Shown: piece by piece, positions 6,334-10,229 of the stretch
Numbering within the stretch: the stretch's first letter is position 1
How the letters are laid out: every line of letters begins with the position of its first letter
Source: a virus
Strand: one strand, 5' to 3'
Length of the DNA: 32,216 nucleotides
IMG/VR virus record: IMGVR_UViG_3300039159_000147
Span: 1-32,216 of that record
Notes under the pieces: model-generated
What the model saw: only the letters and a program-made list of their open reading frames with translations
Told to the model about the DNA's origin: nothing
Databases searched by the model: none
Translations under genes and position numbers: made by a program

Positions 6334-7218
6334 TTATTGCATATTTTGGTTGGAGTACAAAACGCCATCCATAATAAAGCACTTTTTATTTTTAATGTTC
6401 TTTTCTATTGAATTATTTACTGCATTTTTTGAGTCTTGTTTTAAAGACTTCCCTTCGTTAATTTTTAAGACTAATCTAAGTTTTTCAATATCTATTTTAT
6501 TATCATTTTTAGATAAAATAAACATTATTTTTTCTTTATATGAAGCTTCAAAAGGATATTCATTGTAATAGTATTTTTTATTATCTAGTATTTCAAACAT
6601 AGAGGTTTTTTCACTATCACGACCTATAATATCTTCATAAGAAATATCATTGTTTAATATGTTTTTTTCTTTCATTTTTTTAAATAGTTTTTTTCTTGAA
6701 AAATATGTTTTACTTCTTAATTCGTCTTTTTCTAGTCCCAAATATTTGGACAATTTTTCATTACCTACGTGTTTTATTTTTAACTTTAAAATGCGTTTTT
6801 GTTCATCATTGTCAAAATCTTCTATTATATCTAAAATATCTTTTTCTGTAACTTTTTCTTTTAGAATCCCGTTTTTTTCTGTTTCAAATATCATAGCTAT
6901 AATGTCAACTGGTTTGTGGGTATAACCTAACTCAGTAAAATAGTTTTTTTCTACTTTTGCCCTATTCCACTTTTTTTTAAGATAATTATAATAAACCGAT
7001 TTCATTCTTAAATAAGATATTGCTACAAAATGATCTTTACTATTTACTATACATTTTTCACTTTCTATATACTTTTTAATAGAAAAATAATAATCGTGTA
7101 GCAAATCATCAGAAGTGTAAATGTTATCATTAAATCCTAGTTGGTTTCCTTTGTAATAAACAATTCTACTTCTTTCTTTTAATTCATTATAAAATTCTTT
7201 AAAAAGAGTATTTAGCAT
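6334..7218 (-). CDS. Sigma-70-family-like protein carried between attC-like repeats
   Basis: 294 residues from the ATG at 7218 (MLNTLFKEFYNELKERSRIV). Residues ~37-90 (TSDDLLHDYYFSIKKYIE, then SYLRMKSVYYNYLKKKW) resemble region 2 of ECF-type sigma factors; residues ~150-195 (DEQKRILKLKI, KLSKYLGLEKDEL, YFSRKKLFKKMKE) resemble the region 4 helix-turn-helix. A further ~100 Lys/Asn-rich residues follow and are not typical. It could redirect host RNA polymerase, or be a degenerate relative. An in-frame ATG 22 codons upstream (7284) would lie inside repeat C, so I reject it. Lys/Glu/Ile-rich composition is more extreme than in the phage core genes. Recognition is by pattern only. Confidence 0.5.
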   Translation of the reverse strand: MLNTLFKEFYNELKERSRIVYYKGNQLGFNDNIYTSDDLLHDYYFSIKKYIESEKCIVNSKDHFVAISYLRMKSVYYNYLKKKWNRAKVEKNYFTELGYTHKPVDIIAMIFETEKNGILKEKVTEKDILDIIEDFDNDEQKRILKLKIKHVGNEKLSKYLGLEKDELRSKTYFSRKKLFKKMKEKNILNNDISYEDIIGRDSEKTSMFEILDNKKYYYNEYPFEASYKEKIMFILSKNDNKIDIEKLRLVLKINEGKSLKQDSKNAVNNSIEKNIKNKKCFIMDGVLYSNQNMQ

Positions 7219-7227
7219 AAAAACATT

Positions 7228-7366
7228 CACTAACAACGGTTTGCACGCATTGTTGCATTGTGATTCTTTGTTAAAATCTGTCATAAGGGTTATATTTTTT
7301 ATTATTAGTAATTATTTGTGATGAAATTCAACAACGACGTGCAAACCGCAAACCGTTATAAGTAAC
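7228..7366 (-). repeat. attC-like hairpin repeat C
   Basis: The clearest of the three. GGTTTGCACGCATTGTTG (7238-7255) is complementary to 7329-7347 with one indel and one mismatch. Outer boxes are CACTAAC (7228-7234) and GTTATAAG (7355-7362); a second GCAAACC copy sits at 7348-7354. It begins at the end of the 93-residue gene and ends just before the sigma-like gene. The GTTATAAG box and adjoining TAACCACAATGTTGA motif match repeat B. Confidence 0.55.
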
Positions 7367-7790: not shown

Positions 7791-8045
7791 TTAATATTCA
7801 AAAGTTACGACTATTTTGTGTCCTAAATTTTCTGCAGCTTTTTTAGCAAATTCCAAAAGGCTATCAGTATCATATATGAAAAAATTGTGTACTTCAATAT
7901 TGTTTTCTTTGCAAACCTTTTCAAACGTTTCTAAAGATGGTGATGTAGTTCCTAATTCCCATCTTTTAAGCTGAAACTGACTAATACCTACAACTTCTTT
8001 TTTAGCCCTTAAAATAGCTGTTAATTGCTGTTGAATTTTACTCAT
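7791..8045 (-). CDS. HTH (XRE-like) regulator, candidate phage repressor
   Basis: 84 residues. Residues ~5-50 (ILRAKKEVVGISQFQLKRWELGTTSPSLETFEKVCKEN) have the layout of an XRE/Cro-type helix-turn-helix, with the common WELGTTSPSLETFEKV tail. The C-terminal half (DSLLEFAKKAAENLGHKIVVTFEY) is short, so no peptidase domain is present and induction by RecA-type cleavage is unlikely. The start overlaps the stop of the upstream gene as ATGA. Position, reverse of and just before the early operon, fits a lysogeny repressor or Cro-like switch; which one is not decided by sequence. Confidence 0.7.
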   Translation of the reverse strand: MSKIQQQLTAILRAKKEVVGISQFQLKRWELGTTSPSLETFEKVCKENNIEVHNFFIYDTDSLLEFAKKAAENLGHKIVVTFEY

Positions 8046-9906: not shown

Positions 9907-9914
9907 TATATTTA
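9907..9914 (+). promoter_or_regulatory. -7-like box upstream of the tmRNA locus
   Basis: TATATTTA, one base off TAnnTTTG. No TTG at the proper distance, so the RNA may also be transcribed from the early operon. Confidence 0.4.
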
Positions 9915-9918
9915 CAAA

Positions 9919-10204
9919 ATAATTAATTCATTGACGTATTATAATTTTTTGTAAGATCGGAGTTCGAATCTCCGCAGCTCCACAAATCGAATCAGTGTAA
10001 AGTTTTGATGGTTTGGCCAGCCGATATACAAATGGTTTTTTGGGGCTGACTGGTTTTGATTGCAATGCAATAGTAATAAATAGAATTAATTTACCATAAC
10101 CGACAAAGTTATAAATCTTTTCAATGCTCCATTAAGAATGGTGGCATAGTTACGTAAAAAGAACGAAATCTTTAAATCTAACCACTGTAACAAGTGGTTT
10201 TTTT
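9919..10204 (+). ncRNA. ssrA: Candidate circularly permuted (two-piece) tmRNA
   Basis: The hallmarks of tmRNA are present in swapped order. First comes a T arm, CGGAG-TTCGAAT-CTCCG (9958-9974), the 3' acceptor strand CAGCTCC (9975-9981) and discriminator A9982. About 60 bases later comes the 5' hallmark GGGGCTGACTGGTTTTGAT (10042-10060). The two acceptor strands pair over all 7 bp, with G-U at the third pair (G10044-T9979), the alanine identity element of tmRNA. TTGCAA (10061-10066) can pair with TTGTAA (9950-9955), where helix P2 belongs. The locus ends in a terminator at 10180-10204. Bases 9983-10041 would be an excised spacer; CCA is not encoded. The tag frame is uncertain: 10126-10149 would encode APLRMVA then TAG, about 85 bases from the mature 5' end. 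The role would be rescue of stalled ribosomes. Known permuted tmRNAs are from alpha- and beta-proteobacteria and cyanobacteria. Confidence 0.75.
10180..10204 (+). terminator. Rho-independent terminator of the tmRNA locus
   Basis: AACCACT (10180-10186) and AGTGGTT (10193-10199) form a perfect 7-bp stem with a 6-base loop, followed by a T run through 10204. Confidence 0.85.
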
Positions 10205-10229
10205 ATTTCTTAAATTATTGTTAATATAT

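Follow-up and report, generated by a model that had tools for sequence, protein, structure and literature searches.

The sequence studied here is IMG/VR record IMGVR_UViG_3300039159_000147, a linear viral record of 32,216 bases, the whole of which is referred to as the window. The record carries helicase/primase, terminase, portal, capsid and tail genes. Its only leftward block holds a small HTH_3 protein (7791-8045, minus strand) and, adjoining it, a 316-residue protein (6334-7284, minus strand) that matched no PHROG or Pfam family and is possibly a regulator. Amid the small early genes lies a tmRNA locus, the one RNA gene called there by ARAGORN, in which the 3' tRNA-like part stands upstream of the 5' part and a short gap separates the two (the acceptor 3' strand ends at 9981 and the 5' strand begins at 10042). 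The features of the locus are as follows.

9907..9914, plus strand: putative promoter, -7-like box TATATTTA of the Bacteroidota type, one mismatch to TAnnTTTG
9929..9936, plus strand: conserved TTCRTTGA element CATTGACG at the start of the acceptor piece, present upstream of P2 in most relatives
9949..10149, plus strand: circularly permuted tmRNA gene, predicted from ARAGORN, RF04321 and covariation
9949..9954, plus strand: 3' strand of helix P2, TTGTAA, partner of 10060-10065
9958..9974, plus strand: T arm, CGGAG-TTCGAAT-CTCCG, with a stem that covaries in 44 members
9975..9982, plus strand: acceptor 3' strand CAGCTCC (9975-9981), seven pairs with 10042-10048, and discriminator A9982
9983..10041, plus strand: intervening sequence between the acceptor strands, with predicted removal; supported by length and partial conservation in relatives
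10015..10037, plus strand: intervening hairpin GGCC-AGCCGATATACAAAT-GGTT, loop conserved and stem largely paired in ten near relatives
10042..10059, plus strand: acceptor 5' strand GGGGCTG (10042-10048) and D-arm region ACTGGTTTTGA, from the RF04321 alignment and acceptor pairing
10060..10065, plus strand: 5' strand of helix P2, TTGCAA, partner of TTGTAA at 9949-9954
10102..10149, plus strand: tag frame DKVINLFNAPLRMVA and stop, resume codon GAC, from ARAGORN and the gapless alignment of relatives' tags
10129..10141, plus strand: hairpin CCATT-AAG-AATGG at the end of the tag frame, with covariation of two pairs in 32 tags that no shuffle reached
10180..10207, plus strand: intrinsic terminator, a hairpin (10180-10199) followed by a T run

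The T arm, the acceptor strands, GGGGCTG, the P2 strands and the terminator had been placed in an earlier note on this DNA, and re-reading the coordinates confirmed these positions. All seven acceptor pairs form in the window, with the G-U at the third pair that had been claimed, and GGGGCTG is directly followed by ACTGGTTTTGAT. The T arm has a TTCRANN loop, the P2 helix connects both pieces, and the tag frame and its stop lie inside the coding piece. Before CCA is added, the acceptor piece is predicted to have its 3' end at A9982, and the coding piece is predicted to begin at G10042. The terminator said to end the locus was also recovered, one being found where shuffles gave an expectation of 0.2.

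The earlier proposal of a circularly permuted tmRNA in a phage, together with the suggested check by Rfam models and permutation-aware finders, was upheld by several searches. ARAGORN returned the permuted call (tmRNA*) with the tag DKVINLFNAPLRMVA. The Rfam model RF04321 (tmRNA_permuted) aligned over its full length to 9937-10149 with 42.8 bits (E 1.7e-5, window against all families), slightly short of the gathering score of 47 bits, which was reached by all 16 relatives scanned (49.6-75.8 bits). The betaproteobacterial clade model RF01850, the best of its clan for the window, gave 27.5 bits where 84 are required; members for which RF01850 or RF01851 was best of the clan scored 25-48 bits against cut-offs of 84 and 70. 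When the sequences of eight other phages, without that of the window, were made into a profile, it detected the window with 98.5 bits (E 1.9e-29). As a direct DNA query against the phage collection the locus gave no match, and a query of concatenated relatives was required. The folding energy of the whole locus was only mildly better than that of shuffles (z -1.4).

Approximately 50 relatives were found in viral contigs, phage records and two Bacteroidota prophages. The permuted form is not unique to this phage, and the family is wider than the earlier note supposed and is partly present in public records. Viral contigs were scanned with a search pattern in which T arm, acceptor, gap and GGGGNTGNNTGG follow one another as in a permuted gene; three such scans yielded 2, 25 and 45 stretches. 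Among these matches, one group was of the proteobacterial type, with TTTCGAC and tags such as DNNYMSFATSYALAA and ANDERFALAA. The remaining matches formed one set with TTTTGA or TTTGAC and window-like tags, including DKVINLFAQPLRMAS, GKVINLFNSEAKVAA, DKVINMFSPSLRAVA, GKVIQMFAQPVRLAA and GKTIQMFPTQLRAVA. The sole pattern match in named genomes was in Sunxiuqinia indica, a member of the Bacteroidota (tag GKTIQMFDYEAKVAA, RF04321 75.8 bits), where the permuted gene adjoins phage-like genes (RecT-like, exonuclease-like, antirepressor- and repressor-like, from ORFs read by eye). This genome also has a one-piece tmRNA with the tag GENNYALAA. Similarly, genome G266 carries a permuted gene with the tag GKVIQMNNAPVRLAA in a phage-like region, and its own one-piece tmRNA has the tag GEDNYALAA. 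A scan of 395 Bacteroidota genomes with RF04321 under strict filters, giving a lower bound, found at least two cases, namely these two genomes. ARAGORN also made tmRNA* calls in Maribacter phage Panino, Chryseobacterium phage MA9V-3 and the crAss-like phages cr10_1, cr50_1, cr114_1 and cr125_1. The tmRNA gene is accessory, since none of 111 near-relative loci carried it (0/31 portal-related and 0/80 primase-related loci, many of them fragments).

Covariation was analysed in 44 non-redundant members. All seven acceptor pairs form across the 44 members, but constancy is weak proof where the search patterns had fixed the bases, as they did for much of pairs 1-4 and for the 5' strand at pairs 6 and 7. 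Pair 5, which was free of the pattern, was G-C in 23 members, A-U in 10, C-G in 8, U-A in 2 and G-U in 1; it was never broken, whereas it was paired in 52% of shuffles. The free 3' partners at pairs 6 and 7 were complementary in every member, and pairs 4 and 6 also vary (G-U; C-G for U-A) in members obtained independently from a scan with the intervening motif. In addition, T-stem pairs 1, 2 and 4 covary. One member (L208, 1342-1498) has the T loop GGCAGAA instead of TTCGANN and a shifted D region, with the acceptor and the tag AKVINLFSAPIRLAA intact.

The P2 helix lay outside the search patterns. At the first two pairs of this helix, 25 members have CA/TG, 10, including the window, have TT/AA, and 6 have CT/AG, while AT/AT, CG/TG and CG/CG occur once each. 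Mean duplex energy was -5.5 kcal/mol for native strands and -3.0 kcal/mol for swapped strands (z -10.1, 44 members); the window's P2 by itself was not stronger than many swapped pairings. The P2-like pairing TTGCAA/TTGTAA read in the earlier note is part of a helix kept by compensation across the 44 members, and the covariation it had called for in related phages exists both between the acceptor strands and in P2. A near subfamily, consisting of the window and nine relatives, was examined for P2, the T stem, the acceptor and the intervening hairpin. In this subfamily 91% of helix cells were paired (100% in the T stem) and 12 pairs were altered on both sides; neither value was matched in any of 500 shuffles, and sliding the partners abolished the signal. 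Between the beginning of the acceptor piece and the stretch past the tag, pairing did not exceed that of swapped pairs (P 0.07).

The tag comprises 15 amino acids, DKVINLFNAPLRMVA, encoded by codons 10102-10146 and followed by the stop TAG at 10147-10149. The earlier note had offered APLRMVA (10126-10149) as an altered tag; the tag does differ from those of the hosts, but APLRMVA is only the C-terminal part of the 15 residues. An alignment of thirty 15-residue tags needs no gaps and shows 270 synonymous against 118 non-synonymous single-base codon differences. This synonymous excess indicates that the frame is translated and under purifying selection. The family consensus is [GD]K[VT]I-x-[ML]F-x-x-P-[LV]R-x-[VA]A, and phage tags of about 15 residues end mostly in [LV]R[AML][VA]A. 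Through the covarying hairpin at the end of the frame, the triplets LRA, LRM and VRL are connected with base pairing. The window's tag ends in -VA and those of other members in -VA, -AA, -AV, -AS, -TA or -VV. Judging by ssrA variants such as LVA and AAV, ends of these kinds may slow proteolysis by ClpXP. ARAGORN overlooked several members or assigned a wrong tag, which leaves an annotation gap; its tags for three relatives (L138, L167 and L205) were miscalls and were replaced by those from the aligned frames.

An exact TAnnTTTG box was present upstream of 18 of 43 members (85 bases searched), mostly 43-56 bases before P2, compared with 7% in shuffles. The window's TATATTTA at 9907 occupies the same place as the box of the relatives, and several members without the box stand directly behind tRNA genes. 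Within the intervening sequence, the hairpin of the window's subfamily has a conserved 15-base loop, AGCCGATATAYAAAT, and a stem that is 92.5% paired in the ten near-subfamily members, with changes on both sides at three of four pairs. When this motif was sought in viral contigs, nine of ten matches fell between tmRNA pieces. The likeliest role of the hairpin would be that of a processing signal. The intervening sequences of five other members (L127, L142, L168, L119 and L123) share a recurring element, CTAAC-C[CG]GT-CGC-[GT][AT]TAG-T-AC[CG]G, which resembles a small pseudoknot and in which CCGT/ACGG becomes CGGT/ACCG.

The host of the window is most likely a member of the Bacteroidota, because relatives occur in Bacteroidota prophages and in phages isolated on Maribacter and Chryseobacterium, and a promoter box of the Bacteroidota type precedes many members. 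The best named matches of the window's primase are Cellulophaga phages, at 28% identity. One-piece tmRNA was found over the cut-off in 60 of 61 sampled Bacteroidota genomes, in agreement with the earlier statement that these hosts use the one-piece form. The host tags have 9-10 residues, mostly ending in YALAA, YAMAA or YRLAA. The Bacteroidota one-piece tmRNA (RF00023) shares the tRNA-like domain and the rescue role of the phage form, but is not permuted and has tags of 9-10 amino acids against approximately 15 in the phages. Phages may also carry the one-piece form: Cellulophaga phage Calle_1 (L193, 1174-1540) and phage phi38:1 (L201) have a one-piece tmRNA with a 22-residue tag, AQIEANMEAVNAILNLEVAVGV, which the Calle_1 record annotates 52 bases too far downstream and the phi38:1 record does not list.

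The permuted tmRNAs of alphaproteobacteria, betaproteobacteria and cyanobacteria (RF04321; RF01849, RF01850, RF01851) have the same order of acceptor piece, intervening sequence and coding piece, as well as the G-U at acceptor pair 3, the T arm, the cross-piece P2 and a tag in the coding piece. In contrast, the window has TTTTGAT after the D arm instead of TTTCGAC, and the phage tag is about 15 amino acids long with D/G-K-V/T-I and [LV]R[AML][VA]A. The tmRNAs of Panino, MA9V-3 and the crAss-like phages have the same permuted order as the window according to ARAGORN. The Panino tag, GKVMNVSFAPTVRQFA, resembles that of the window, whereas the crAss-like tags (GNNFVTDYT...) do not, and the crAss-like intervening sequences may be longer, with 96 bases in cr10_1 (L198) and 211 in cr50_1 (L196). 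A tRNA-Asp call in Panino (L195, 1422-1494) overlaps the acceptor piece of the tmRNA and is probably a false tRNA arising from the T arm.

The public records for Panino, MA9V-3 and four crAss-like phages are labelled only tmRNA or SsrA; the crAss-like gut phages (L196-L199), with their permuted tmRNAs and GNNFVTDYT... tags, are recorded as plain tmRNA. The parts of the Panino and MA9V-3 papers that were available report a tmRNA and do not mention permutation. Among 133 unique phage tmRNA structures, 53 two-piece forms have been described, mostly from marine or aquatic phages (PMC9004378, 2022). These include the permuted tmRNAs of methylophage Melnitz and the pelagiphages, which are likewise phage-encoded but are of the alphaproteobacterial type, with another kind of tag, in Proteobacteria phages and with a linked glutamine riboswitch (PMC9004378). 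Some of the phage tmRNA sequences reported here are likely to be in a database already. The open papers searched assign permuted tmRNA to alpha- and betaproteobacteria, cyanobacteria and mitochondria, and none describing a Bacteroidota-phage permuted lineage was found among the main texts of openly available papers.

For the family, an attP core of an ssrA-integrating phage is refuted: the lone 3' part that the earlier note had considered is not what relatives carry, both parts being present and covarying. It is extremely improbable that the window's own copy is an attP remnant, with T arm and acceptor copied from the host ssrA and a 5' part that is a chance match or a decayed fragment. Integration commonly takes place at tmRNA genes (PMC11915505), but here a 5' part exists with changes that compensate those of the 3' part, the T stem and GAT of the window are unlike the 3' ends observed in host one-piece genes, no tyrosine integrase (PF00589) was matched in the record, and the tag frame is under purifying selection. 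The RNA might instead act as a decoy: by binding SmpB or ribosomes it would block trans-translation in the host, as is the case for the RNA of mycobacteriophage DS6A, which lacks a CDS. A phage tmRNA without a coding part inhibits tmRNA in E. coli, according to PMC11915505, which cites earlier work. A decoy would need no tag frame, yet a 15-codon frame with its stop and a synonymous excess has been retained, and this reading is very unlikely.

A degenerated copy of a once functional permuted tmRNA would fit the RF04321 score below the cut-off, the weak P2 and intervening stem with their wobble pairs, the near relatives without the gene, and GAT in the window where relatives have GAC. Such decay is nevertheless very unlikely, as every acceptor and T pair is intact, the tag frame still runs to its stop codon, and both the hairpin in the tag and the terminator are preserved. 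We consider it very probable that 9949-10149 is a functional, phage-borne, circularly permuted tmRNA gene, because the ARAGORN call, RF04321, the profile, the compensation in the helices, the selection on the tag, the promoter box of the relatives and the Bacteroidota prophage and phage carriers all point to it.

As a functional gene, the locus would be transcribed from the promoter near 9907 through the terminator at 10180-10207. Host tRNA-processing enzymes would excise 9983-10041, with RNase P cutting before G10042 and the 3' end lying after A9982. CCA would be added by the host, since it is not encoded in the gene, and the acceptor stem and P2 would hold both pieces together. Alanyl-tRNA synthetase would charge the RNA with alanine, as proposed from the G-U at acceptor pair 3. 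No SmpB gene was found in the record, so the phage would have to borrow SmpB from the host. With this protein the tmRNA would enter stalled ribosomes, where translation would resume on the tmRNA's frame from GAC 10102 onwards, giving the addition A-DKVINLFNAPLRMVA. During infection, ribosomes stalled on broken mRNAs would thus be rescued with the phage tag in place of the YALAA-type host tag, which would probably alter the degradation of the products.

The earlier note had also proposed that a Bacteroidota phage represents a separate origin of the two-piece layout. Support for the host phylum is indirect. The tRNA-like domain scores 0.78-0.80 in similarity to permuted forms of proteobacteria and to one-piece host forms alike. 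A separate origin is not established, since the domain that can be aligned resembles permuted forms of proteobacteria no less than the members of its own set. The resume codon is uninformative on origin, as hosts use G, A and D starts. A separate Bacteroidota-phage two-piece lineage, with its own permutation event, a tag replacing the YALAA type and an intervening sequence whose structure serves the processing of the RNA, is possible but somewhat doubtful.

Two-piece tmRNA has been known from three bacterial lineages and mitochondria, and to these is added a large phage-borne set, the confirmed hosts of which are Bacteroidota that have one-piece tmRNA. The set is a direct case of a virus supplying both a ribosome-rescue RNA and a degradation tag of its own. 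With it, one can test whether phages change what becomes of rescued proteins, and whether two-piece tmRNA has re-arisen or has been spread by phages.
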